Below, in pieces: positions 3,930 through 20,049 of a stretch of 64,000 bases of DNA (the first letter of the stretch is position 1; every line of letters starts with the position of its first letter). Both the position numbers and the translations under genes were made by a program. The DNA is taken from contig NZ_JAFBCJ010000001.1 in the NCBI RefSeq assembly GCF_016907675.1, positions 1,178,001 through 1,242,000 on the forward strand. The letters run 5' to 3'. The notes beneath the pieces were generated by a model. That model ran no database searches. It was not told the DNA's origin and was given only the letters and a program-made list of their open reading frames with translations. This DNA is from Geodermatophilus bullaregiensis (GTDB lineage Bacteria > Actinomycetota > Actinomycetes > Mycobacteriales > Geodermatophilaceae).

Positions 3930-5867
3930 ATGACCCTGATCGACTCGCCCCGCACGACCGTCAGCCACCCGCTGTCCCGGCTCACCGCCGAGGAGATCAC
4001 CGCCGCCACGGCCATCGTCCGCGCCGCCGGCCTGGTGCAGGAGAGCAGCAAGTTCGTCTACGTGGGCCTGGAGGAGCCGCACAAGCGCGACGTCCTGGCC
4101 TGGACGCCCGGCGACCCGATCGAGCGCCGGGTGCGCGCCCTGCTGCTCGACCGCGCCACCGGCAACGGCCGTGACCTCACCGTCTCCGTCACCGGGGGCA
4201 CGGTCGTCACCGACGTCGAGATCGACGGCGTGGCCGACGGGCAGGTGCCGATCCTCGACGCCGAGTTCGAGGCGATCGAGCCGATCCTCGCCGCCGACGA
4301 GCAGTGGATCGCCGCGATGGCCAAGCGGGGGCTGGACGTCGCCGACGTCCGGTGCGTGCCGCTGTCGGCCGGCTCCTACTTCCCCGGCGAGTACGGCCAC
4401 CGGATCGCCCGGGTGCTCGGCTTCCACCAGGCCGACGAGTCCGACCTGCCCTGGGCGCACCCGGTGGACGGCGTGGTGGCCTTCGTCGACATCACCCGCG
4501 GCGTCGCGCTCGACGTCCAGGACCACTACGACCTGCCCGTGCCCGCCGAGCGCGCCGACCTGACCCCGGACGTCCACCCCTCGCCGGTCCGGGACCTGCG
4601 GCCCATCGAGATCACCCAGCCCGAGGGCCCGAGCTTCACCGTCGAGGACGACGTCGTCCGCTGGGCCGGCTGGGAGTTCCGGGTCGGCTTCGACGCCCGC
4701 GAGGGGCTGGTGCTCAACCAGCTGTCCATCGACGGCCGGTCGGTGGTGCACCGCGCCTCGATCGCCGAGATGGTCGTGCCCTACGCCGACCCCTCCCCGG
4801 TGCGGTTCTGGCAGAACTACTTCGACGTCGGCGAGTACGTCTTCGCCCGCTACACCAACTCCCTCGAGCTGGGCTGCGACTGCCTGGGCGAGATCCACTA
4901 CCTCGACGCCACGCTCGCCGACGAGGACGGCGCCCCCCGGGTGATCCGCAACGCCGTCTGCCTGCACGAGGAGGACTACGGCGTCGGCTGGAAGCACACC
5001 GACCTGTTCAACGGGATGGCCGAGACCCGCCGGTCGCGGCGGCTGGTGATCAGCTTCTTCACCACGATCGGCAACTACGACTACGGCTTCTACTGGTACC
5101 TCTACACCGACGGCACCATCCAGCTGGAGAGCAAGGCGACCGGGATCGTCTTCACCTCGGCCTACCGCGGCGAGGAGCACCCGTACGCCACCGAGGTCGC
5201 CCCGGGCCTCGGGGCGCCGTTCCACCAGCACCTGTTCTCCGCGCGGCTGGACATGGCGGTGGACGGCGCCGACGGGTCCGGCAACACCGTGCACGAGGTG
5301 GACGCCGTCCGGCTGCCGATGAGCGACACCAACCCCTACGGCAACGCCTTCGCGCGCCGGCTGACCCCGCTGACCCGGGAGTCGGAGGCCCAGCGGCTCA
5401 CCGACGCCACCGTCGGGCGGACCTGGCACGTGGTCAACCCGTCGAAGACCAACCGGCTCGGGCAGCCGGTGGGCTACGCGCTGCACCCGCTGAACGGCCC
5501 GGTGCTGCTGGCCGACGAGCAGTCCTCGATCCACAAGCGCGCCACGTTCTCGACCAGGAGCCTGTGGGTCACCGAGTACGACCCGGCCGAGCGGTACCCG
5601 GCCGGCGACTTCGTCAACCAGCACCCGGGCGACGGTGGGCTGCCGGCGTTCGTCGCCGGCGACGCCCCGCTGGAGGACACCGACGTCGTGCTCTGGCACA
5701 CCTTCGGGCTGACCCACTTCCCGCGGCCCGAGGACTGGCCGGTCATGCCGACCGACTACTCCGGTTTCACGCTCAAGCCGGTCGGCTTCTTCGACCGCAA
5801 CCCCGCGCTCGGCGTCCCGCCGTCGACGTCCTCGCACTGCTCGCCCGGCGAGGGGCACTGCGGGTGA
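3930..5867 (+). CDS. Copper-containing primary-amine oxidase
   Basis: 645 residues, the length of the Arthrobacter globiformis phenylethylamine oxidase. The enzyme converts a primary amine, water and oxygen to aldehyde, ammonia and hydrogen peroxide. The topaquinone precursor is Y383 in T-I-G-N-Y-D-Y; the catalytic base is D299 in YFDVGEY; two copper ligands are the H-Q-H pair at residues 432 and 434, and the third is in GLTHFPRPEDWPV near the C-terminus. All catalytic and metal residues are therefore present. No signal peptide is visible, as in the Arthrobacter enzymes, so it acts in the cytoplasm. A TGAGGAG site precedes the ATG. It lies directly downstream of an amine-type permease and overlaps the next gene by four bases. 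The preferred amine (tyramine, phenylethylamine, histamine or an alkylamine) cannot be told by eye. Confidence 0.95.
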   Translation: MTLIDSPRTTVSHPLSRLTAEEITAATAIVRAAGLVQESSKFVYVGLEEPHKRDVLAWTPGDPIERRVRALLLDRATGNGRDLTVSVTGGTVVTDVEIDGVADGQVPILDAEFEAIEPILAADEQWIAAMAKRGLDVADVRCVPLSAGSYFPGEYGHRIARVLGFHQADESDLPWAHPVDGVVAFVDITRGVALDVQDHYDLPVPAERADLTPDVHPSPVRDLRPIEITQPEGPSFTVEDDVVRWAGWEFRVGFDAREGLVLNQLSIDGRSVVHRASIAEMVVPYADPSPVRFWQNYFDVGEYVFARYTNSLELGCDCLGEIHYLDATLADEDGAPRVIRNAVCLHEEDYGVGWKHTDLFNGMAETRRSRRLVISFFTTIGNYDYGFYWYLYTDGTIQLESKATGIVFTSAYRGEEHPYATEVAPGLGAPFHQHLFSARLDMAVDGADGSGNTVHEVDAVRLPMSDTNPYGNAFARRLTPLTRESEAQRLTDATVGRTWHVVNPSKTNRLGQPVGYALHPLNGPVLLADEQSSIHKRATFSTRSLWVTEYDPAERYPAGDFVNQHPGDGGLPAFVAGDAPLEDTDVVLWHTFGLTHFPRPEDWPVMPTDYSGFTLKPVGFFDRNPALGVPPSTSSHCSPGEGHCG

Positions 5868-6873: not shown

Positions 6874-7290
6874 GTGATCGCCGAAGCGCCGGCCTGGTTG
6901 CCGACGGACCTCTCCAGTGCCCTCGACGAGAAGCTCGGCATCGAGATCACCGACTGGGACCCCGCCCACGTCGTCGCCCGGATGCCCGTCGAGGGCAACA
7001 CCCAGCCCCACGGCCTGCTGCACGGCGGCGCCACCTGCAGCCTGGTCGAGACCGTCGGGTCCTACGCCGCGGCGCTGCAGGCCGGGCCCGGCGCCACGGT
7101 CGTCGGGATCGAGCTGAACGCGAGCTACGTCGCGGCCGTGACGTCCGGCTGGGTGACCGCGGTCTGCACGCCCGCCGGCGCGCAGCTGCCGCTGTCGACC
7201 TTCCGCATCGAGGTGACCGACGACCGGGGCCGGCTGACCGCCAGCGCCCGGCTGACCTGCATGGTCAGGCCGGCCCGCGCGTCGGGCTGA
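6874..7290 (+). CDS. PaaI-type hotdog acyl-CoA thioesterase
   Basis: 138 residues, the normal length of a single-hotdog PaaI/YdiI thioesterase. The helix start HGLLHGGATCSLVETVGS carries the H-G-G and the Glu/Asp catalytic position; NASYVAAVTSGWV is the typical middle strand. These enzymes release aryl-CoA or short acyl-CoA esters and relieve CoA trapping during aromatic degradation. GTG start at 6874. The gene ends head-on against the acetyltransferase gene at 7265, overlapping it by 26 bases. It is the last gene of the amine oxidase operon and could serve either that island or the adjacent benzoyl-CoA cluster. Confidence 0.85.
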   Translation: MIAEAPAWLPTDLSSALDEKLGIEITDWDPAHVVARMPVEGNTQPHGLLHGGATCSLVETVGSYAAALQAGPGATVVGIELNASYVAAVTSGWVTAVCTPAGAQLPLSTFRIEVTDDRGRLTASARLTCMVRPARASG

Positions 7291-7702
7291 GCGACCGGCC
7301 GAGCAGCCACACCGTCACCGCCGTCCGGCCGGGGTGGGTGCGGCGCCGGACGTCGCTCACCCGGTCCAGACCCCGCTCCCGGGCCGCCTCCCCCAGGCGG
7401 ACGGTGCCGAAGCCGGCGGCCCCCGTGGCCGCGCCGGCGCTCGCGACGGCCAGCAGCGCCACCGCCCGGCCGGCGACCTCGTGCAGCCAGCAGGAGGCCA
7501 CCACCGCCCCGCCGTCCGTGACGTCCCACCAGGCGCCGGGCAGCCGGCGGCCGGGGACGCGCAGCCCGGCCGGGAACAGCTCGTCCGGGACGGTGGCGAA
7601 GAGCGCCTCCCGGTGCGCGTCCCACCGCGGGTCGGGGTCCTCGGCCCAGCCGAGGGTGTAGGACGACGCGGCGTCGGCCGCGCGCACGGCGCCTCCCGTC
7701 AC
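7265..7702 (-). CDS. GNAT-like acetyltransferase, probably shortened copy
   Basis: 145 residues from a GTG whose second and third bases form the stop of the upstream amidohydrolase (GTGA). The sequence is a clear paralogue of the protein at 16014-16667: both open with a D-P-R-W-D-A-x-R-E/R-x-x-F-A-T-V-P segment, and share a G-x-R-L-x-x-x-W-W and a THPxRxAVTxWL segment. In this copy the end after the T-V-W-L motif is replaced by a short unrelated tail, so the last acetyl-CoA fold strand (GFTAAEDGRL in the other copy) is missing, and the THP motif neighbourhood is Arg-rich. It may be inactive or specialised. It is cotranscribed with the amidohydrolase. Confidence 0.6.
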   Translation of the reverse strand: MTGGAVRAADAASSYTLGWAEDPDPRWDAHREALFATVPDELFPAGLRVPGRRLPGAWWDVTDGGAVVASCWLHEVAGRAVALLAVASAGAATGAAGFGTVRLGEAARERGLDRVSDVRRRTHPGRTAVTVWLLGRSLSPTRGPA

Positions 7703-8565
7703 GGGACCGCGGGCGCCAGGCCGGCGTACACCCGCAGCGCGTTGCCGCCGAGGACGAGCGGGACGACGTCGTCGGGCAGGCCGAGCGAGGCGACCGCCCG
7801 GGCGTTGACCGCCTGCCCGGGGACGCCCGGCCAGTCGGTGCCGTAGACGAACCGGCGCGCCAGGCGGCCGAGGTCGAAGCGCGCGTAGTACTCGGGCAGC
7901 CGCTCGGGCGGCAGCCCGGAGAGCTCGATCCACACGGTGGGGCGCGAGAGGGCGAGGAAGGCCGCCGCGTCGTACCACCAGCCGCGGCCGCCGTGGGCCA
8001 GCACCACGTGCAGGTCGGGGAAGTCGCGCAGGACGGCGTCGAGCAGCTGCGGGTCGGCGTAGGCGTTCGTCGACCCCGGGAAGCTGCTCGTCCCGCAGTG
8101 CACGACGAGCGGGACGCCGCGCTCGACGAGCACCGCGTAGGCCGGGTACATCGCCGCGTCGTCGGGGCGGAAGCCGCCGTGCACGGGGTGGATCTTCAGG
8201 GCGGCGGCGCCCAGGTCGAGCTGGCGCTCCAGCTCGCGCGCGATCGGGAAGTGCAGGTGCGGGTTGACGTTGGCGACAGGCCGGAACCGCCGCGGGTTGT
8301 GCGCCACGATCGGCAGCAGGTCGTCGAAGAGCTGGTAGCCGGTCGCCCTGGGGCTGTACTCGCAGAACAGCAGGGCGACGTCCACGCCCTCGTCGGCGAA
8401 GAGGCGGTCGAGCGCCGCCGGGTCCGGCGTCCCGTCGGCGTGCCAGACCTCCTCCAGGACCCCGGGCCGCCCGAACCGCCGCGCCCACTCGACCCACGCC
8501 GGCGCCAGCGAGGACAGGCGGGGCACGTGGACGTGGGCGTCCACGAGGACGTGCCCGTCGAGCAT
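7699..8565 (-). CDS. Amidohydrolase, ACMSD/TIM-barrel decarboxylase-type
   Basis: 288 residues. The first strand ends in V-D-A-H-V-H-V, the HxH metal motif; K-I-H-P-V-H-G carries the middle His; V-V-H-C-G-T-S another; and V-Y-G-T-D-W-P supplies the final Asp. This is the amidohydrolase_2 pattern that includes aminocarboxymuconate semialdehyde decarboxylase, resorcylate decarboxylases and related aromatic acid enzymes. A GGGAGGACC site precedes the ATG. Its promoter gap contains one of the three CTACA-N26-TGTAG repeats shared with the box transport and boxC promoters, which suggests an aromatic-acid role. Whether it decarboxylates or hydrolyses cannot be decided by eye. Confidence 0.8.
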   Translation of the reverse strand: MLDGHVLVDAHVHVPRLSSLAPAWVEWARRFGRPGVLEEVWHADGTPDPAALDRLFADEGVDVALLFCEYSPRATGYQLFDDLLPIVAHNPRRFRPVANVNPHLHFPIARELERQLDLGAAALKIHPVHGGFRPDDAAMYPAYAVLVERGVPLVVHCGTSSFPGSTNAYADPQLLDAVLRDFPDLHVVLAHGGRGWWYDAAAFLALSRPTVWIELSGLPPERLPEYYARFDLGRLARRFVYGTDWPGVPGQAVNARAVASLGLPDDVVPLVLGGNALRVYAGLAPAVP

Positions 8566-8610: not shown

Positions 8611-8668
8611 CCTCGACGTCCTACAGTGACACGTCACCGGGTCGATCGGCGTGTAGCCCGTCCGGGTT
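8611..8668. promoter_or_regulatory. Conserved inverted repeat, site A of the candidate box regulon
   Basis: CTACA at 8621-8625 and TGTAG at 8652-8656 are separated by 26 bases. Read outward, the arms are TGTAGGACGTCG (minus strand) and TGTAGCCCGTCC (plus strand), close to the consensus TGTAGCACGTCC. It lies between the divergent amidohydrolase and DUF6158 genes. Same spacing and arms as at 10307-10342 and 16740-16775, while the 26-base interiors differ. Confidence 0.6.
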
Positions 8669-8766
8669 CCCTCGGGTGCAGCCAGCACGGTGTGCTGACA
8701 GCCGGACGGGCCGGGGGCACGATGCGACCGGGGCCACGGACCCGCGCGCCGAGCGGAGGAGCACTC

Positions 8767-9318
8767 ATGACCGAACGACCGGGCGTCCCGGCCCGCGAGC
8801 TGTCCGACGAGGACCTGGAGCGCCAGGGGGTGCACGCGCACGCCATGCGCCACTGGGTGTTCCTGCACGGGACCGCCGAGCAGTTCCGCACGCACACCGA
8901 GCGGATGCTCGAGCTCGAGCAGGAGTACCTGCGCCGCCACCCGCAGCGCACCTGGCAGGGGTCCGGGGGCGGGGCGGCCACCCCCTCGCGCGACGACCGG
9001 ATCCGCGACCTCGTGCAGACGTTCTCCCGGGCGGTCACGTCCCTGCTCGACGAGGAGCCCGCCCCGGCCGCGGCCGACGGCTCCGCCCGCGACCCCGCGG
9101 AGGTCCAGGCGGCGCTGCTGCGGCGCTTCGCCGAGGCGCCGGGCGGGCGGCTGCACAAGCTCGAGGCGCACCAGATCGCGCGCCAGCTGGCCCCGGACAG
9201 CCACCTCGTCGCCCGGCTCTACCGCCAGGACCCGCCGCTGCTGCAGGCCGAGCGGGACATGCGGGTGCTCACCGACGCCGGCCGCTCGTGGCTGGCCGCG
9301 CACGTCCCGACCGCCTGA
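8767..9318 (+). CDS. DUF6158-family protein
   Basis: 183 residues, soluble and highly charged. The first 65 residues (P-A-R-E-L-S-D-E-D-L, then F-L-H-G-T, then H-T-E-R-M-L-E-L-E-Q-E-Y-L-R-R-H-P) match the small actinobacterial DUF6158 family as I recall it, which has no known activity. The C-terminal 70 residues are a second helical segment (RLHKLEAHQIARQLAPDSHLVARLYRQD) resembling a short winged or helical regulatory domain. A GGAGGAG site precedes the ATG. It is divergent from the amidohydrolase across site A and therefore probably belongs to the same regulon. Function unknown. Confidence 0.7.
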   Translation: MTERPGVPARELSDEDLERQGVHAHAMRHWVFLHGTAEQFRTHTERMLELEQEYLRRHPQRTWQGSGGGAATPSRDDRIRDLVQTFSRAVTSLLDEEPAPAAADGSARDPAEVQAALLRRFAEAPGGRLHKLEAHQIARQLAPDSHLVARLYRQDPPLLQAERDMRVLTDAGRSWLAAHVPTA

Positions 9319-9344
9319 CGGCCCGGGACGGCCGGCGCGGTCCC

Positions 9345-10166
9345 TCAGCCGTCGCGGCTGAGCTCGCGCCAGGCCGTCTGGGCCCGCGGCGCCCAGGCGG
9401 CGTGCCGCTCGCGGAAGACCTCCGCCGCCCGGTTGCCGCTCCACCGCGGCGGCAGCAGCTCGCGCGGCAGCCCGGGGTCGAGGAGCGGGAACCGGCGCCA
9501 CTCCTGGACCAGCCGCACCTGGGCGACGAGCGCCTGCCGGTCCGTGCGCGGCCGGCGGGTCCCGACCAGCTCCAGGAAGTCCTCGTAGCGGCCCTCGATC
9601 GCGTCGAGGTCCCACGCCGTGCGCGTCAGGGAGCGCTCGTCGCCGACGACGCCGGCCTCGGCGACGAACGACCAGCTGCCCGACAGCAGGCCCAGGTCCT
9701 CGAGCACCCGGCGGGCCGCCTGCTCCCGGTCGATGCGCGGCGTGACCCACGTGGTCGTGTCGATCGACCCCAGGCCGGCCCAGCCGAGCTGCGTCCGAAG
9801 CCGCTGCCGCAGGGGGCGGGCGTTCTCCGGCACGCCCACCGCGAGCACCAGCCAGCGCCCGTCCCAGGCGCGGTCCTCCGCCGCGAAGCCGTAGATGCGC
9901 TCGGTGCCCTCGCGCAGCAGCGCCGTCCCGGCCTCGGTGAGCGACCAGCGGGTCTCCCGGCCGACCCGGCTGCCGGCGATCCACCCGCTGTCCGCGGTGC
10001 GCATGATCGCCTGCCGGGCGGCCTTCTCGGCGACGTCGAGGTCGGCCAGCAGGTCGATCAGCGTCGCCGTCCACACCGGGGCGCCGCTGGGCAGCACGAA
10101 CTCGCCGAGCACCGTGAGGAGCAGGCTGCGTGCGCTGGCCGCCCCCAGCTCCTGGCGCCGCGTCAC
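9345..10166 (-). CDS. PaaX-like transcriptional regulator
   Basis: About 273 residues. Order of domains follows PaaX: N-terminal winged helix (ARSLLLTVLGEFVLPSG, then AARQAIMRTADSGWI and GRETRWSLTEAG), a middle domain with W-D-G-R-W-L-V-L-A-V-G-V-P-E, and the PaaX C-terminal domain (LVAQVRLVQEWRRFPLLDPGLPRELLPPRWSG). PaaX proteins bind phenylacetyl-CoA or another aryl-CoA and repress aromatic-degradation operons. GTG 10166 chosen because GAGGGG lies six bases upstream and the resulting N-terminus fits the family; GTG at 10190 or 10196 are alternatives. It is divergent from the ABC transporter operon with repeat site B between them, making it the best candidate for the protein that reads these repeats. 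Confidence 0.85.
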   Translation of the reverse strand: MTRRQELGAASARSLLLTVLGEFVLPSGAPVWTATLIDLLADLDVAEKAARQAIMRTADSGWIAGSRVGRETRWSLTEAGTALLREGTERIYGFAAEDRAWDGRWLVLAVGVPENARPLRQRLRTQLGWAGLGSIDTTTWVTPRIDREQAARRVLEDLGLLSGSWSFVAEAGVVGDERSLTRTAWDLDAIEGRYEDFLELVGTRRPRTDRQALVAQVRLVQEWRRFPLLDPGLPRELLPPRWSGNRAAEVFRERHAAWAPRAQTAWRELSRDG

Positions 10167-10296
10167 GACCGGCCCCTCGACGAGTTCCACGCACACATCG
10201 TGACACCCCGACCACACTCCCCCGGCGGCCGACCACGACGCGGCCGGGCGAGGGCACCCGGCGACCGCGGGCAGAGGTGTGAGCCTTGACACACCT

Positions 10297-10349
10297 GGAC
10301 CGTCTGCTACATGCTCGGCTGCTGACAGACGTGTGGCTGTAGCACGTCC
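10297..10349. promoter_or_regulatory. Conserved inverted repeat, site B of the candidate box regulon
   Basis: CTACA at 10307-10311 and TGTAG at 10338-10342 with a 26-base spacer. Outward arms TGTAGCAGACGG (minus) and TGTAGCACGTCC (plus). It lies between the divergent PaaX-like gene and the ABC transporter operon, with its right arm 26 bases before the start of the substrate-binding protein, i.e. in the zone of a core promoter or its operator. Confidence 0.65.
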
Positions 10350-10368
10350 TGACTCGACGGAGAGTTAC

Positions 10369-11601
10369 ATGACGCTGCACGGCCTGTCCCGGGGGCGGCT
10401 GCTCGGTTCGCTCGGCGCGGTGGCGCTGCTCTCGGCCACGACCGCCTGCGGCGGCGGGAGCCTGGGCGGCGGCGACGAGGACACCGGCGGCGAGGGCGGC
10501 GGCGGAGGTGGCGGCACCGTCCGCGTCGGCCTCGTGATCCCCCAGGCCGGCGTCTACACCCCGCTCGGCGAGGACATGCAGCAGGGCTGGGACCTGTGGC
10601 TCGAGCAGAACGACGGCCGGATGGGCGACTACGAGGTCCAGACCGTCGTCGCCGACGAGGGCGAGGGCCCCGACACCGGCGTGCCCGCCATCCAGCGCCT
10701 GCTCCAGGAGGAGCAGGTCGACGTCGTGGTGGGCATCGTCAACTCCGCGACGGCCCTCGGCGCGGCCGACCAGTTCACCGAGGCGCAGAAGCTGCTGGTC
10801 GTGGCCAACGCCGGGGCCGGCGCGATCACCGGCGAGGCCACCTCCCCCTACGTCTGGCGGACCTCGTTCACCAACGCCCAGGTCGCCGCGGCCATGGGGC
10901 AGCACCTGGCCGAGGAGGGCGTCGGCCCGGTCTACGTCATGGCGCCGGACTACGCCGCCGGGCAGGAGGTCGTCGCCGGCTTCACCGAGGCCTACGAGGC
11001 CGGCGGGGGGACGGTGGCCGGCCAGGCGCTGACCCCGTTCGGGACCACCCAGGACTACCAGCCGTTCCTGTCGGGGATCCGCGAGTCCGGCGCGGCCGCG
11101 ACGTTCGTCTTCTACTCCGGCGCCGAGGCGGTCAGCTTCGTCCAGCAGTACGACTCGTTCGGCCTCAAGGCCGAGATCCCGCTGTACGGCTCCGGCTTCC
11201 TCACCGAGGGCAGCGTCCTGGAGGCCCAGGGGCCCTCCGCCGTCGGCGTGCAGACGACGCTGCACTACTCCACGGAGATCGACAACGAGGCGAACACCGA
11301 GTTCGTCGAGGCCTACGAGGCGGCCTACGACGAGCCGCCGACGGTGTTCGGCATGACCACCTACGACACGGCCAACGTGCTCGCCGACGCCCTCGCCGAG
11401 GCGGGCGGACTGAGCGGCGACGAGCTGTCGGCCGCCCTCGAGGGCCTCGGCGAGATCGAGGACAGCCCCCGCGGTCCGTGGAGCTTCAACGGCCAGACCC
11501 CCGAGCAGAGCATCTACCTGCGCGAGGTGACCGACGAGGGCGGGACGCTCGTGAACAGCGTCCTCACCGACCTCGGCACCTTCCCCCAGCCGGGCAGCTG
11601 A
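10369..11601 (+). CDS. ABC transporter substrate-binding lipoprotein, branched-chain/aryl acid type
   Basis: 410 residues. A signal peptide with a lipobox ending at C27 (S-A-T-T-A-C) is followed by a Gly/Asp/Glu linker and a type I periplasmic-binding fold of the LivJ/LivK family (VRVGLVIPQAGVYTPLG, then VDVVVGIVNSATALGAAD, and YDTANVLADALAEAG). These proteins capture leucine-type amino acids or, in aromatic clusters, benzoate-type acids, and hand them to LivHM. It heads an operon with two permeases and two ATPases, upstream of the box catabolic genes, so an aromatic acid is the likely cargo. A GC-rich stem-loop separates it from the first permease gene, which would allow higher expression of the binding protein. 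Confidence 0.9.
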   Translation: MTLHGLSRGRLLGSLGAVALLSATTACGGGSLGGGDEDTGGEGGGGGGGTVRVGLVIPQAGVYTPLGEDMQQGWDLWLEQNDGRMGDYEVQTVVADEGEGPDTGVPAIQRLLQEEQVDVVVGIVNSATALGAADQFTEAQKLLVVANAGAGAITGEATSPYVWRTSFTNAQVAAAMGQHLAEEGVGPVYVMAPDYAAGQEVVAGFTEAYEAGGGTVAGQALTPFGTTQDYQPFLSGIRESGAAATFVFYSGAEAVSFVQQYDSFGLKAEIPLYGSGFLTEGSVLEAQGPSAVGVQTTLHYSTEIDNEANTEFVEAYEAAYDEPPTVFGMTTYDTANVLADALAEAGGLSGDELSAALEGLGEIEDSPRGPWSFNGQTPEQSIYLREVTDEGGTLVNSVLTDLGTFPQPGS

Positions 11602-11620
11602 GCCCGGTGTCCCCGTCGCC

Positions 11621-11649
11621 GCCCTCCCCCGCCGCCGCGGCGGGAGGGC
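11621..11649 (+). other. GC-rich stem-loop between binding protein and permease genes
   Basis: GCCCTCCC(cc)GCCGC at 11621-11635 can pair with GCGGCGGGAGGGC at 11637-11649, with a two-base bulge and a very tight loop. In ABC operons such structures often protect the upstream binding-protein mRNA or attenuate read-through. The ribosome site GGGAGGAGG of the next gene starts immediately after, so it could also affect translation. Confidence 0.35.
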
Positions 11650-11668
11650 CGGGAGGAGGCCGCAGACC

Positions 11669-12559
11669 GTGATCGGCTGGTTCGACGAGAACCTGGTCAG
11701 CATCCTCAACGGCTTCGCCATCGGCTCGCTGCTGTTCATCCTCGCCGTCGGCCTGTCCATCGTCTTCGGGATGATGGACGTGCTGAACCTCGCCCACGGG
11801 GCGCTGTTCCTCGTCGGCGCCTACCTCGCCTGGAGCCTGCTCTCCGACGGCGCGACGTGGGGCGGGTTCCTCGCCGCGCTGGGGATCGCCGCGCTCGTGG
11901 GGCTGCTCGCCGGCGGCGCCCTGTCGGTGATGACCGAGCCCCTGGCCCGGCGGCCGATCCTCGACCAGGCGCTGCTGACCCTCGGGGTGTCGCTCGTGGT
12001 CGCGGAGGTGCTGTCGATCGTCTACGGCAACGACGCGCTCTCCGTCGGCGCGCCGCCCGGCCTGGCGGAGAGCGTGTCCTTCCTGGGCCGCTCCTACCCG
12101 GCCTACCGCCTGGCGCTCATCGGCGTCGGCCTGGTCCTCGCCGCCGTCGTCTACGTCGTGGTCGAGCGGACCTCGGTCGGCGCGCTGGTCCGCGCCAGCG
12201 TCGCCGACCGCGAGATGGTCTCGGCCATGGGCATCGACAACCGCAAGGTCAAGGTCGCGGTGCTCGGCATCGGCTCCATGCTGGCGACCGTGGCGGGGGT
12301 GCTCGGCGCGCCCGTCTACGGCGCCCGGCCCGGCCTCGACGACACCATCCTCATCCTCGCCCTCGTGGTCGTCGTCATCGGCGGGCTCGGCTCGGTGAAG
12401 GGCGCGCTCGTCGGCGCGCTCGTCATCGGGCAGGTCGAGTCGCTCGGCCGGGCGCTGCTGCCCGACGTGGCGTCCTTCATCCTGTTCGGCACCCTGGCGC
12501 TGGTGCTCGTGCTGCGGCCGCGCGGGCTGTTCGGCCCGAGGAAGCTGGCGGGGACGTGA
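11669..12559 (+). CDS. livH: Branched-chain-type ABC permease, LivH family
   Basis: 296 residues with about eight membrane segments. The family signature is clear: GLSIVFGMMDVLNLAHGALFLVGAY at the N-terminus and the EAA-like loop with A-S-V-A-D-R-E-M-V-S-A-M-G-I-D. LivH forms the transmembrane channel with LivM. The GTG start has a strong GGGAGGAGG upstream. The last bases overlap the livM start (GTGA), so stoichiometric production with LivM is expected. Confidence 0.92.
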   Translation: MIGWFDENLVSILNGFAIGSLLFILAVGLSIVFGMMDVLNLAHGALFLVGAYLAWSLLSDGATWGGFLAALGIAALVGLLAGGALSVMTEPLARRPILDQALLTLGVSLVVAEVLSIVYGNDALSVGAPPGLAESVSFLGRSYPAYRLALIGVGLVLAAVVYVVVERTSVGALVRASVADREMVSAMGIDNRKVKVAVLGIGSMLATVAGVLGAPVYGARPGLDDTILILALVVVVIGGLGSVKGALVGALVIGQVESLGRALLPDVASFILFGTLALVLVLRPRGLFGPRKLAGT

Positions 12560-13593
12560 GCGCCACCGTGGCGTCCACCGTGGCCGACACCGCCGTGTCC
12601 GCCGGCCGGCCCGGCGGGCGACGGCGTCCCCCCTCGCTGCTGCGGGCGCTCCCGGCCGTCCTCGCCCTGGTGCTGCTGGCCGCGGCCCCGTTCTTCCTCG
12701 CCCCGTTCGCCACGACGGTGCTCGGCCGCGTGCTGGTGTTCGCGCTGTTCGCCGTGAGCCTCGACCTCCTGGTCGGGGTGACCGGCCTGCCGTCGCTGGG
12801 TCACGCCGCCTACTTCGGCGCGGGGGCCTACACGGCCGGCCTGGTGTCGATCCACGTCACCAGCGAGGGGCTGGTCCCGGTCCTGGCCGCCGGACTCGCC
12901 GGGGCGGTCGCGGCCGCCGCGACCGGCTGGCTGGCGGTGCGCAGCAGCGGGGTCTTCTTCCTGATGCTGACCCTCGCCATCGGCGAGATCGTCTTCCAGC
13001 TGGCCACGACCCTGGACTCGGTGACCGGCGGCTCCAACGGCCTCTACGGCATCCCCGCCGTCCGGCTCGGGGGCACGCCGCTCACGCTCGCCGGCCACGT
13101 GTACTGGTTCGTCCTGGCGGTGGCGGTCGCCGGGTTCGCCTGCCTCTGGCTGGTCTCACGCTCGCCCGTCGGCGGTGTGCTGCGCGGCATCCGCGACAAC
13201 GAGCCCCGCCTGCGGTCGCTCGGGTACTCCCCGTTCCGCTACAAGTACGTGGCCTTCGTGATCGCCGGCGCCTTCGCCGGGGTGGCCGGTGGCCTGTTCG
13301 CCGCGCAGGTCCGCCTGGTCACGCCGAGCGAGGCCGGCTTCACCACCGGCGCGCTGGCCCTGCTCGCGGTCGTCCTGGGCGGGGCGGGCTCGCTGTGGGG
13401 GCCGGTGCTCGGCGCCGCGGTCGTCGTCCTCGTCCGCGACGCCCTGGGCCCGACCCTCGACGGGCACGGCCCCCTCGTCCTCGGCATCGTCTTCGTGCTC
13501 GCCGTCTACCTGCTGCCGCGGGGCTTCGCCGGCCTGGCCGGGGTCTCCGGGGCCCTGCGGCGCCGGCGCACGGCCCGGGGAGGGACGACGTGA
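12556..13593 (+). CDS. livM: Branched-chain-type ABC permease, LivM family
   Basis: 345 residues. After a 30-residue polar N-terminus there are about nine membrane segments with the LivM marks: SLDLLVGVTGLPSLGHAAYFGAGAY and the cytoplasmic loop S-P-V-G-G-V-L-R-G-I-R-D-N-E-P-R-L-R-S-L-G-Y. It pairs with LivH to form the channel. GTG start overlapping the livH stop by four bases and its own stop overlapped by four bases by livG, so livHMG are tightly coupled. Confidence 0.92.
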   Translation: MSATVASTVADTAVSAGRPGGRRRPPSLLRALPAVLALVLLAAAPFFLAPFATTVLGRVLVFALFAVSLDLLVGVTGLPSLGHAAYFGAGAYTAGLVSIHVTSEGLVPVLAAGLAGAVAAAATGWLAVRSSGVFFLMLTLAIGEIVFQLATTLDSVTGGSNGLYGIPAVRLGGTPLTLAGHVYWFVLAVAVAGFACLWLVSRSPVGGVLRGIRDNEPRLRSLGYSPFRYKYVAFVIAGAFAGVAGGLFAAQVRLVTPSEAGFTTGALALLAVVLGGAGSLWGPVLGAAVVVLVRDALGPTLDGHGPLVLGIVFVLAVYLLPRGFAGLAGVSGALRRRRTARGGTT

Positions 13594-14381
13594 GCGACGC
13601 CCTGCTGTCCCTGTCGGGGGTGAGCCGGCACTTCGGCGCGCTCACGGCGGTCGACGACGTGACCCTCGACGTCCCCGCCGGGGCACGGCACGCGCTGATC
13701 GGTCCCAACGGCGCGGGCAAGAGCACCCTGTTCAAGCTGGTGACCGGCAGCATGCCGGTGTCGGCCGGGCGGGTGTCCTTCGCCGGTACCGACGTCACCC
13801 GGCTGCCGGAGCACGCCCGGGCGCGGCTGGGGATCAGCCAGACCCTGCAGCACTCCAGCCTGTTCACCTCGCAGACCGTCGAGCAGAACGTGCTGCTCGC
13901 CGCCCAGCGGCGCCGCGGGTCGCGCGCGTCCCTCGTGCCGCGGCGGCAGGCCGCCGCCCGCGAGCGGGTCGCCGCCCTGCTCGCCGACGTCGGCCTCGAG
14001 TCCCGCAGCGGCAGCCCCGTCGCCGACCTCTCCCACGGTGAGCGGCGGCAGCTGGAGGTGGCCGTCGCCCTGGCCTGCGACCCGCAGCTGCTGCTGCTCG
14101 ACGAGCCGGCGGCGGGCATGTCCCCCGCGGAGAGCGCGCGGCTGGTCGAGCTGGTCCGGGCGCTGCCGGCGTCGGTCACCGTGGTCATCGTCGAGCACGA
14201 CCTCGACGTCGTCTTCGCGCTGGCGCGGTCGGTCACCGTGCTCCACCTGGGCCGGGTGCTGCTGACCGGCGCACCCGAGCAGGTGCGCGCCAGCGACGCG
14301 GTGCAGCAGGCCTACCTCGGCCCCGGCCGGGAGTCCCTGTTCACCGACTCGGCCGGACCGGCCTCCCTGGGGGTGGGCTGA
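13590..14381 (+). CDS. livG: Branched-chain-type ABC ATPase, LivG family
   Basis: 263 residues. Walker A is G-P-N-G-A-G-K-S near residue 39; signature motif L-S-H-G-E-R-R-Q-L-E-V-A; Walker B L-L-L-L-D-E-P-A-A-G-M; switch His in I-V-E-H-D-L-D-V-V. Signature has the LSHGE form common in LivG. It couples ATP hydrolysis to transport through LivHM. GTG start overlapping livM. LivF follows with no gap. Confidence 0.92.
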   Translation: MSDALLSLSGVSRHFGALTAVDDVTLDVPAGARHALIGPNGAGKSTLFKLVTGSMPVSAGRVSFAGTDVTRLPEHARARLGISQTLQHSSLFTSQTVEQNVLLAAQRRRGSRASLVPRRQAAARERVAALLADVGLESRSGSPVADLSHGERRQLEVAVALACDPQLLLLDEPAAGMSPAESARLVELVRALPASVTVVIVEHDLDVVFALARSVTVLHLGRVLLTGAPEQVRASDAVQQAYLGPGRESLFTDSAGPASLGVG

Positions 14382-15083
14382 GTGCTCGAGGTCCGCGGAC
14401 TGGAGTCCGGTTACAAGCGCAGCACCGTGCTGCAGGGCGTCGACCTCGACCTGCCCGAGGGTCGCGCGCTCGGCGTGCTCGGCCGCAACGGCGTCGGCAA
14501 GACGACGCTGGTCAACACGCTCATGGGGCTGGTGCGCGCCTCCGCCGGCACCGTCCGGCTCGGCGGGGTGGACCTCACCGGCCGCCGCCCCGACGTCGTC
14601 GCCCGGGCCGGCGTGGCCCTCGTGCCGCAGGGCCGGCGGGTCTGGGCGCCGCTCACCGTGATCGAGCACCTCGACCTGGCCGCGCGCCGCGGCCGGGGGC
14701 GCGGCCCCTGGGACACCCGCCGGGTGGTCGAGCTGCTGCCGCGGCTCGGCGAGCGCCTGCGGCACGGCGCCGGGCAGCTCTCCGGCGGCGAGCAGCAGAT
14801 GCTGGCCATCGCCCGGGCGCTGCTGACCAACCCGCGGCTGGTGCTCATGGACGAGCCGTCGGACGGGCTCGCGCCCACCGTCGTCGACGCCATCGGGCAG
14901 GTCGTCGTCGGCATGAAGGCCGAGGGCGTGACCCTGCTGGTGGTCGAGCAGGACCTGCACCTGGCCTTCGCCGTCGCCGACGAGATCGCGGTGGTGCAGA
15001 AGGGCCGGATCGTGCACCGCTGCTCGACGCCGGAGTTCCGCAGCGACAGCTCGGTGGCCCACCGTCTCCTCGGCGTGGCCTGA
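14382..15083 (+). CDS. livF: Branched-chain-type ABC ATPase, LivF family
   Basis: 233 residues, the usual LivF length. Walker A G-R-N-G-V-G-K-T; a P-Q-G-R-R-V-W-A-P-L-T-V Q-loop segment typical of LivF; signature L-S-G-G-E-Q-Q-M-L-A-I-A-R-A-L; Walker B L-V-L-M-D-E-P-S-D-G-L-A-P. It heterodimerises with LivG. The GTG start immediately follows the livG stop. It completes a five-component uptake system in one transcription unit. Confidence 0.92.
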   Translation: MLEVRGLESGYKRSTVLQGVDLDLPEGRALGVLGRNGVGKTTLVNTLMGLVRASAGTVRLGGVDLTGRRPDVVARAGVALVPQGRRVWAPLTVIEHLDLAARRGRGRGPWDTRRVVELLPRLGERLRHGAGQLSGGEQQMLAIARALLTNPRLVLMDEPSDGLAPTVVDAIGQVVVGMKAEGVTLLVVEQDLHLAFAVADEIAVVQKGRIVHRCSTPEFRSDSSVAHRLLGVA

Positions 15084-15090
15084 CTCCCCC

Positions 15091-16020
15091 GTGACCGACC
15101 CCGGCCGGTCGCGCCTGCAGCGGCTCGGTGTGCCCGCGCTCTTCGTGCTGCTGTGGAGCACCGGCTTCGTGGGCGCGCAGTACGGCCTGCCCCACGCCGA
15201 GCCGCTGACCTTCCTGGGGCTGCGGATGGTGATCGCCGCGTCGCTGCTGGCGCTGATCGCGCTCGTCCTGCGCGCGGCCGTGCCCGCCCGGCCGGCGCAG
15301 TACGGCCACTCCGCGGCGGTCGGGCTGCTGCTGCACGCCGGCTACCTCGGCGGGGTCTTCGTCGCGATCTCGCTCGGGACCCCGGCGGGCGTGTCGGCGG
15401 TCGTGGTCAGCCTGCAGCCGGTCCTCACCGTCGTGCTGGCCGGGCGGGTGCTCGGGGAGCGGACGGCGCCGCGCCAGTGGCTCGGCCTCGCGCTCGGGGT
15501 GGCCGGCGTGGTCGTGGTCGTCTGGCCGGGACTCACCGCGGCGGCCGGCCAGGCCGGGGCGCTGTCGACGCCGGGCCTCCTCGCCTGCCTGGTGGCGCTC
15601 GCCTCGGGCACCGCCGGCACGGTCTACCAGAAGCGGTACGGCGCCGGCGTCCCGCTGCTGTGGGGCACGGCCGTGCAGTACGCGGCCGCGGCGGCGGTCC
15701 TGCTGCCGGGCGCGGTCGCGACGGAGCGGATGACCGTCCGGTGGACCGGCGAGTTCGTGCTGGCGATGCTCTGGCTGGTGCTCGCCCTCTCCCTCGGCGC
15801 GGTCCTGCTGCTGATGCTGCTCCTCCGGCGGGGCACGGCCGCCGAGGTGTCCAGCCTCTTCTACCTGGTGCCGCCGGCCGTGGCCCTCGAGGCCTGGCTG
15901 CTGTTCGGGACCGTCCCGGCGGCGGTGTCGCTGGCCGGCGTCGCGCTCACCGCCGGAGGTGTCGCGCTGGTGGTCGTCCCCCGGCGCCGGCCGCTGCCGG
16001 TCGGGCAGCCGGCTCAGTAG
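15091..16020 (+). CDS. EamA/DMT-family transporter
   Basis: 309 residues with ten membrane segments in two EamA halves: LFVLLWSTGFVGAQYGL in TM1, then ISLGTPAGVSAVVVSLQPVLTVVLAG and a second half ending GVALTAGGVALVV. Members export amino acids or metabolites, or import small organic solutes. The GTG start is seven bases after livF, so it is the last gene of the transport operon and may export a toxic pathway intermediate. Its end overlaps the convergent acetyltransferase gene by seven bases. Confidence 0.85.
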   Translation: MTDPGRSRLQRLGVPALFVLLWSTGFVGAQYGLPHAEPLTFLGLRMVIAASLLALIALVLRAAVPARPAQYGHSAAVGLLLHAGYLGGVFVAISLGTPAGVSAVVVSLQPVLTVVLAGRVLGERTAPRQWLGLALGVAGVVVVVWPGLTAAAGQAGALSTPGLLACLVALASGTAGTVYQKRYGAGVPLLWGTAVQYAAAAAVLLPGAVATERMTVRWTGEFVLAMLWLVLALSLGAVLLLMLLLRRGTAAEVSSLFYLVPPAVALEAWLLFGTVPAAVSLAGVALTAGGVALVVVPRRRPLPVGQPAQ

Positions 16021-16667
16021 CGGTGCTCCTCCGGGTCGACGTACCCGCCGCTCTCCTCCTCGCCGGGCCCCCGGTCGGCACCGACGACGGCGGTCTCGGT
16101 CTCCGGCCGGGGCCGGCTCTCGGCGCGCCCCCGCTCGGCGAGGTACCGCGCCTGCCGGTCCCCCTCCGGGGGCGTCGCCCGGCCGGTGCCCGGCCGGCCG
16201 GCCTGGTGCTGGCCGACGTCACGGTCCCGGTCGCCGACCCGCTTGCGCAGCCGGCCGTCCTCGGCCGCCGTGAAGCCCCGCCGCTCCAGCCACGCCGTCA
16301 CCGCCGCCCGCTCCGGGTGTGTGTCGCGGACCACGTTGAGGACGTAGTTGAGTCCCCGCGCGGCGGCCTCCTCCTCAAGGTGGCGCAGGGCGAAGGCACC
16401 CACCCCGGTCCCCCGCGCGCCGTCCTCGACGGCCAGCAGGACCTCGGCGTCGCCCCAGACGTCGTCGAGCCAGCCGTAGCCCACGACCGAGCCGGCGCGC
16501 TCGACGCGCCACCAGTCGCTGGACAACCGCTCGCCGGGCCTGCGGGAGTCGCTGCGGAAGACGCCGCCGGGGACGGTCGCGAAGACGCGCTCGCGGTCGG
16601 CGTCCCACCGGGGGTCGTCCTCGTGCACCCAGCGCAGGGCGACCGCCTGCGTGTCGGGAACGGCCAT
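16014..16667 (-). CDS. GNAT-family N-acetyltransferase with polar tail
   Basis: 217 residues. Residues 1-150 form a GNAT-like fold: a motif-A-like V-L-L-A-V-E-D-G-A-R-G-T-G-V-G-A-F segment contains the R-G-x-G-x-G/A acetyl-CoA loop, and G-L-N-Y-V-L-N-V-V-R-D-T-H-P-E-R-A-A-V-T-A-W-L-E-R-R-G-F is motif B. The last 65 residues are charged, proline-rich and probably disordered. Paralogous to 7265-7702, which lacks the final strand. The gene faces away from boxC across site C, so both paralogues lie on the minus-strand side of a conserved repeat. Acceptor substrate unknown. Confidence 0.7.
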   Translation of the reverse strand: MAVPDTQAVALRWVHEDDPRWDADRERVFATVPGGVFRSDSRRPGERLSSDWWRVERAGSVVGYGWLDDVWGDAEVLLAVEDGARGTGVGAFALRHLEEEAAARGLNYVLNVVRDTHPERAAVTAWLERRGFTAAEDGRLRKRVGDRDRDVGQHQAGRPGTGRATPPEGDRQARYLAERGRAESRPRPETETAVVGADRGPGEEESGGYVDPEEHRY

Positions 16668-16729
16668 GTCCGACCCCCGTCCGGGATCCGGAGCCGCGCG
16701 GCGCACACGACCCACGGGGCTGTGGTCTG

Positions 16730-16782
16730 TGCCACATGTCTACAGGCGAGGAGCCCCTTGCGCAAGGTCGTGTAGCACGTCA
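16730..16782. promoter_or_regulatory. Conserved inverted repeat, site C of the candidate box regulon
   Basis: CTACA at 16740-16744 and TGTAG at 16771-16775 with a 26-base spacer. Outward arms TGTAGACATGTG (minus) and TGTAGCACGTCA (plus). It lies between the divergent acetyltransferase and boxC genes, the right arm 62 bases before the boxC start. Inside the spacer sits CCCTTGCGCAAGG (16755-16766 region), itself a short palindrome around TTGCGCAA. Confidence 0.65.
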
Positions 16783-16837
16783 CGATGGGTGCCGGCAGGC
16801 CCGTGCACCGTGGCGCCCGCGACTCCCTGGAGGCACC

Positions 16838-18565
<1,728 letters not shown>

Positions 18566-18567
18566 CC

Positions 18568-20049
<1,482 letters not shown>

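Follow-up and report, generated by a model that had tools for sequence, protein, structure and literature searches.

We analysed a 64,000-nucleotide stretch of the Geodermatophilus bullaregiensis genome (the window), which carries the boxC and boxB genes, a gene for a PaaX-family protein and a Liv-type importer. Three copies of the inverted repeat CTACA-N26-TGTAG lie in divergent gaps of this region. Judging from the sequence, these repeats are very likely operators of the adjacent PaaX-family protein, which would repress the box genes and be released by benzoyl-coenzyme A (benzoyl-CoA). This provides a testable operator and regulon for box-pathway benzoate use in actinobacteria.

Distribution and conservation of the repeat

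An earlier sequence-only reading of the window had reported the repeat at three positions, each between two divergent genes. All three copies were found where it placed them (Table 1), and the window contains no fourth. The gaps are those between the amidohydrolase and DUF6158 genes (site 1), between the paaX-like gene and livK, the binding-protein gene at the head of the importer genes, and between a GNAT acetyltransferase gene and boxC. Dinucleotide shuffling of the window produced 0 matches in 100 shuffles. The same reading had proposed a genome-wide count, and this count revealed no crowd of equally spaced matches: the organism's own genome (5.2 Mb, single contig) holds 4 matches, including the 3 window sites, with 0.30 expected from the window base composition and 1 match for a reversed control pattern. 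The fourth match (L071 8094-8129, corresponding to G000:C1:992093-992128) is perfect, lies outside the box cluster and is at chance level, and the three open reading frames (ORFs) adjoining it gave no family match when scanned.

When the right arm was extended to TGTAGCACGTC and at most 2 mismatches were allowed, only the three window sites were recovered genome-wide, with 0 mismatches at two sites and 1 at site 1 (both strands). With up to 3 mismatches, the two strands gave 7 and 8 matches, compared with 58 and 52 for the reversed control, and at spacing 25 the own genome held nothing better than 3 mismatches to the extended pattern. The unextended arms at spacings of 20 to 31 occurred 4 times at N26, 3 times at N28 and at no other spacing. 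The CTACA-N28-TGTAG copies are identical to one another (G000:C1:437633, 1365097 and 2794857), are also present in many related genomes, and are probably part of a ribosomal RNA operon.

We then compared relatives' loci, which were fetched via the PaaX-like protein and not via the site unless stated otherwise. By this protein, the closest relatives belong to Geodermatophilus, Blastococcus, Modestobacter and Klenkia (77-88% identity). The results showed perfect arms at spacing 26 upstream of boxC in 18/18 PaaX-fetched family loci covering the region, as well as in the window, with the site 59-72 bp before the start in each. The repeat is thus kept in relatives' box clusters, where the sequence-only reading had said that its loss would count against a shared site. 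In a 24-row boxC alignment, 5 rows of which had been fetched by the pattern itself, identity was 100% in the arms, 61% in the interior, 52% in the left flank and 98% over the six bases that follow the right arm. Every one of the 16 head-to-head paaX/livK gaps, the window's among them, likewise had perfect arms (spacing 25 or 26), and so did a 17th paaX upstream region whose contig ends before livK; 7 of these 17 regions had spacing 26 and 10 had spacing 25. Across 23 loci (405 kb), a search for CTACA-Nk-TGTAG with k from 0 to 60 gave 28 matches at k=26, 11 at k=25, and one each at 15, 19 and 24.

The pattern extends to more distant bacteria. We examined 14 head-to-head paaX|boxC gaps whose PaaX is about 48-58% identical; they come from further genera of the family as well as from other families and orders. 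A spacing-25 site was found in 12/14 gaps at up to 2 mismatches and in 9/14 at up to 1, while other spacings from 12 to 40 reached at most 6/14 (N32; 2 at up to 1 mismatch) and mononucleotide shuffles of the gaps gave a mean of 0.46 and a maximum of 3. The two misses, L033 and L094, are an effect of the gap limits chosen; by eye, L033 carries CTACA-N25-TGTCG and L094 a perfect N26 site. Where paaX and boxC are not head-to-head, 5/8 boxC promoters had a spacing-25 site at up to 2 mismatches (perfect in G336), compared with at most 2/8 at other spacings from 18 to 35, although three of these eight genomes (G123, G146 and G180) belong to one genus and are not independent. Among the three misses, L111 and L114 show the left arm and TTGACG, the right arm falling beyond the limit set, and L110 shows CGACA-N25-TGTCC by eye, with 3 mismatches. 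L034 and L036 are the same sequence, and L029, in which the boxC upstream region is incomplete, was left out. In G242 and G070, a perfect spacing-25 site stands just before paaX. Another perfect spacing-25 site was observed at L142 (G196:C86) 4414-4448, 1.8 kb from paaX, in a genome with a PaaX orthologue and no boxC match.

These comparisons refine what had been said about the shape of the repeat. A spacing of exactly 26 holds in the window, but 25 is as common in relatives' paaX/livK gaps and is preferred in distant relatives. The interiors of the window sites look unrelated, as described, but those of orthologous boxC sites have a TTGC(G/A)C box in common, always at the same position. Agreement outside the arms is strong for GCACGTC on the boxC and livK right arms, whereas the left arms agree mainly in TGTAG. 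The half-site centres are indeed about three helical turns apart, 30-31 bp with relatives included. In many relatives' paaX/livK gaps, the right arm also lies inside a longer palindrome, GACGTGC-N7-GCACGTC (10328-10348 in the window, which has GACGTGT); this palindrome was not seen in the aligned boxC gaps.

The site and the regulator also occur together across genomes. Among 112 family genomes, a PaaX orthologue (at least 75% identity) was found in 25, a spacing-26 site in 25, and both in 23 (Fisher 1.9e-19); family genomes with a close boxC had the site in 22/22 cases. Among 394 class genomes, boxC (at the chosen cut-off) was present in 13, the orthologue in 14, and both in 13.

The PaaX-family protein and known regulatory systems

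The protein encoded beside the repeats matched all three PaaX domains above cut-off: PF07848 (N-terminal winged helix-turn-helix, 63.8 bits), PF20803 (Cas2-like middle domain, 58.3 bits) and PF08223 (PaaX_C, 71.4 bits). Its AlphaFold model had a predicted local distance difference test (pLDDT) score of 88.0. Fold comparison gave E. coli PaaX (8a39) as the best match (Z 24.2, root-mean-square deviation 2.9, 261 residues aligned), followed by 3kfw (Z 17.3), 3l09 (Z 16.9) and then matches of 8.7 and below. By alignment, the true start of the gene is probably near 10190. These findings, together with the conservation and co-occurrence of the site, support the earlier suggestion that the three gaps share one site with the PaaX-like protein as its likely binder. 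A further PaaX-family gene, 33-36% identical, was observed in L005, L007, L008, L011, L013, L014, L015, L018 and L019; in L015 it adjoins genes resembling benzoate-CoA ligase and badI/menB.

The sequence-only reading knew of no description of such a site, but a wide inverted repeat of this kind is on record. According to a 2022 review (PMC9493321), the E. coli PaaX site is TGATTC(N27)GAATCA, PaaX hinders RNA polymerase at its own promoter and so represses it, and its binding is inhibited by phenylacetyl-CoA; the review also notes that the PaaX-operator complex had no known structure at the time. In E. coli K-12, we found TGATTC-N27-GAATCG 5' of paaA, and the nearest sequence 5' of paaZ was TGTTTC-N28-GAATCA. 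The box-cluster sites resemble the E. coli PaaX box in having inverted half-sites about three helical turns apart, a free interior, a location in divergent gaps and autoregulation (here predicted), and the two proteins share the same three-domain fold and an association with an aryl-CoA ring-epoxidation pathway. They differ in spacing (25/26 here versus 27, with centres 30-31 bp apart versus 33, that is 2-3 bp less) and in pathway, which is benzoyl-CoA (box) here and phenylacetyl-CoA (paa) for E. coli PaaX. The wide inverted repeat and the fold match therefore place our sites among PaaX-type operators as an architecture, not to the base: the widely spaced PaaX architecture is known, and the arms, spacing and pathway are new. 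A literature search, with subscription papers largely outside it, found no description of PaaX regulation of actinobacterial box clusters. A PaaX-family regulator apparently serves a second aryl-CoA pathway here. Moreover, the large natural operator set, with fixed arms and a free interior, should allow the PaaX recognition code and half-site geometry to be derived.

BoxR is a fusion of an XRE domain to a shikimate-kinase-like (SKI) domain. No BoxR-type XRE-SKI protein was found in the G. bullaregiensis genome: the sole SKI match there has 3-dehydroquinate synthase and chorismate synthase as neighbours, and its frame gave no helix-turn-helix match. In Betaproteobacteria, the XRE-family proteins BoxR and BzdR are described as repressors of the box and bzd genes with benzoyl-CoA as inducer (PMC6449761, PMC4424350). 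Those systems and ours have in common the control of box genes and of a putative benzoate ATP-binding cassette (ABC) importer in divergent clusters, and benzoyl-CoA as the effector (both predictions here), but the regulator is of an unrelated type. The TetR-type PaaR of Burkholderia acts at an inverted repeat of 15 bp that lies between the -35 and -10 boxes (PMC2770484). PaaR likewise represses an aryl-CoA pathway, and its inverted repeat lies in core promoters, both as predicted here; unlike our sites, its operator is compact.

A proposed repressor model and its alternatives

The position of the arms was related to promoter boxes inferred from alignments. In the boxC alignment, TTGC(G/A)C and CAnnAT-like boxes are conserved 17 bp apart; the spacer between them contains the right arm, and the left arm lies upstream of -35. 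In the livK alignment, TTGACA is conserved 15 bp before the left arm and 18 bp from CAnnnT, so that the left arm covers the inferred -10; when the livK gap was scanned for consensus promoters, with a near-consensus -10 required, none was found. The amidohydrolase promoter of L013-L015 has TTGACC and the right arm just before -10; TTGACC is not present at the window's own site 1. In distant boxC promoters, TTGACG begins 5 bp after the left arm and the -10 abuts the right arm. The distance from the left arm to the boxC -35 box is 13 bp in the window and 5 bp in distant relatives, a shift of 8 bp. Promoter boxes that move while the arms and their spacing stay are the behaviour of an operator, and the arm positions suit a repressor. 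A small palindrome, TTGCGCAAG (TTGCAC in some genera), was also observed over the inferred boxC -35, within 16745-16770 and in relatives' boxC gaps; it could simply be a promoter box, or it may be the site of a second factor.

The regulon proposed earlier had comprised an amidohydrolase operon, DUF6158, the PaaX-like gene, the Liv-type transporter, an acetyltransferase and boxCB. Support was obtained for boxCB, the transporter, paaX itself and the amidohydrolase. A perfect site at spacing 25 or 26 was found within 200 bp of the amidohydrolase orthologue in 7/13 relatives' loci (14 matched rows, L014 and L085 being from one genome); three of the seven (L086, L087 and L143) had been retrieved by the site itself, and L090, among the six that lack it, was retrieved around a boxC site. 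Among PaaX-fetched amidohydrolase loci, the site was present within 200 bp in 4/9. The site is found at the amidohydrolase in L013, L014, L015, L086 and L087, where the gene is 7.7-14.6 kb from paaX. The left flank of a third site in L005 (L005:19714) resembles the one in L013. As L005 gave no amidohydrolase match, this site was not counted as an amidohydrolase site, though it is in the six-row alignment set. For DUF6158, 0/21 relatives' gaps had a spacing-26 site at up to 2 mismatches. Perfect sites at other spacings occur in the DUF6158 gaps of L006 (spacing 25, in a gap common with the amidohydrolase) and L023 (spacing 24). The L023 repeat, CTACA-N24-TGTAG at 11463-11496, is about 90 bp upstream of the DUF6158 gene with CCTTGACC inside, and is possibly an operator with fewer bases between the arms. 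Site 1 fits the amidohydrolase better than DUF6158, which was not supported as a target since relatives' gaps are mostly site-free; control of DUF6158 by site 1 is weakly supported at best, and some strains may differ.

In the mechanism we propose, the winged-helix domains would read the outward-pointing TGTAG(CACGTC) half-sites, which lie on one side of the DNA because their centres are 30-31 bp apart, and the 25-26 bp between them would not be read. With the arms overlapping or flanking the inferred -35 and -10 boxes of boxCB, the importer and the amidohydrolase, RNA polymerase would be blocked, and with one arm in the promoter region of paaX, the regulator would repress itself. Release from DNA would follow when the regulator binds the pathway's first CoA-thioester, most likely benzoyl-CoA, as happens with phenylacetyl-CoA in E. 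coli PaaX. What the data show is the site itself, how it is conserved and spaced, its occurrence together with the regulator, and the family and fold of the protein; binder, direction of control and inducer are what we infer, the inducer on the basis of the pathway and of the aryl-CoA sensing known for PaaX and for BoxR (PMC4424350). A broader generalization is tentative: across Actinomycetes, a PaaX-type protein might replace BoxR as the benzoyl-CoA sensor, clamping the boxC -35 rigidly between two TGTAG-reading heads with promoter-specific spacing (26 at boxC and 25/26 at livK in the same genomes).

Several observations weigh against assigning the repeats to a PaaX-type repressor. The protein scored 162.4 bits against TIGR02277, under the 264.55 cut-off, which makes it a member of the PaaX family and not the phenylacetate equivalog. 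The arms are CTACA/TGTAG here, with the right one extended to TGTAGCACGTC, versus TGATTC/GAATCA in E. coli, and the E. coli paaX gap itself has no N27 match within 3 mismatches. G098 has the orthologue without the site, on a contig that ends in the gene beside paaX and in a genome where no boxC was found; G079 has the orthologue but no boxC match, and the 400 bp preceding its paaX contain no site; G015 and G051 have the site without the orthologue. No site lies within 200 bp in 5/9 of the PaaX-fetched amidohydrolase loci. Many family genomes also contain the reversed control pattern, so a bare match means little and only the places of matches carry weight. Co-occurrence, moreover, is partly linkage, because regulator and boxC adjoin in most genomes.

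It is also conceivable, though unlikely, that the PaaX-like protein binds but activates, or that two dimers or a tetramer cooperate at the half-sites. The half-sites are far enough apart for each to hold its own dimer, and the palindrome around the livK right arm in many relatives could be a dimer site of its own. Against this reading stand the overlap of the arms with the inferred spacer or -10, a repressor position, the fact that TGTAG is not itself palindromic, and the spacing of 25 in 12/14 distant gaps, which suggests a stiff link between two readers.

We consider it improbable that the repeat is bound by a different transcription factor with its gene elsewhere and that the PaaX-like gene is only one of that factor's targets. 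In favour of this, co-occurrence by itself does not identify the binder, as the regulator, boxC and the site are mostly linked, and some relatives carry a further PaaX-family gene (28-36% identical) close to their clusters. The family scan covered part of the window genes, and several scanned ORFs matched no family. Nevertheless, the PaaX-like protein was the sole regulator-type match among the scanned window proteins, its own genome holds no other match to it at E 1e-40 or better, a BoxR-type protein was not found there, and the wide spacing is a known PaaX architecture.

Very little probability remains for the arms being conserved promoter or RNA elements, such as -10-like boxes or a leader hairpin, and no operator. 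CTACA does resemble a weak -10, and the arms overlap inferred promoter boxes. Because the -35 shifts between clades while the arms persist, the arms are not a promoter by-product, and their place within the promoter differs between boxC, livK and the amidohydrolase. An RNA hairpin was rejected: at boxC, the two arms precede the inferred -10 and would not be transcribed. Chance coincidence in GC-rich DNA, for which only the own-genome match outside the cluster (C1:992093) speaks, was dismissed as practically negligible on the shuffles, the genome-wide counts and the conservation at boxC, livK and in distant gaps.

Features of the window

The repeats, the promoter boxes and the genes around them are listed in Table 1.

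Table 1. Predicted operators, inferred promoters and neighbouring genes, in window coordinates.
Feature	Position	Strand	Remarks
Predicted operator 1, CTACA-N26-TGTAG	8621..8656	- (read towards amidohydrolase)	arms 8621-8625 and 8652-8656
Predicted operator 2, paaX-like/livK gap	10307..10348	+	arms 10307-10311 and 10338-10342; right-arm extension CACGTC
Predicted operator 3, before boxC	16740..16781	+	arms 16740-16744 and 16771-16775; right-arm extension CACGTC
boxC promoter TTGCGC-N17-CACGAT	16758..16786	+	inferred from alignment; right arm in spacer
livK promoter TTGACA-N18-CATGCT	10286..10315	+	inferred from alignment; left arm overlaps -10
PaaX-family regulator, proposed binder	9345..10211	-	PF07848, PF20803, PF08223
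Amidohydrolase (PF04909, Amidohydro_2), proposed operator 1 target	7699..8565	-	start 8565
DUF6158 gene (PF19655), operator 1 neighbour	8767..9318	+	weakly supported as target
livK-H-M-G-F-type ABC importer genes (branched-chain type), proposed operator 2 target	10369..15083	+	
GNAT acetyltransferase, divergent from boxC	16014..16667	-	
boxC (to 18565) then boxB, proposed operator 3 targets	16838..20049	+	TIGR03222 886.8 bits; TIGR03225 765.8 bits

In some relatives, paaX comes directly after the GNAT gene, on the same strand. A stretch downstream of the amidohydrolase (7286-7666) is 45% identical to the GNAT protein.

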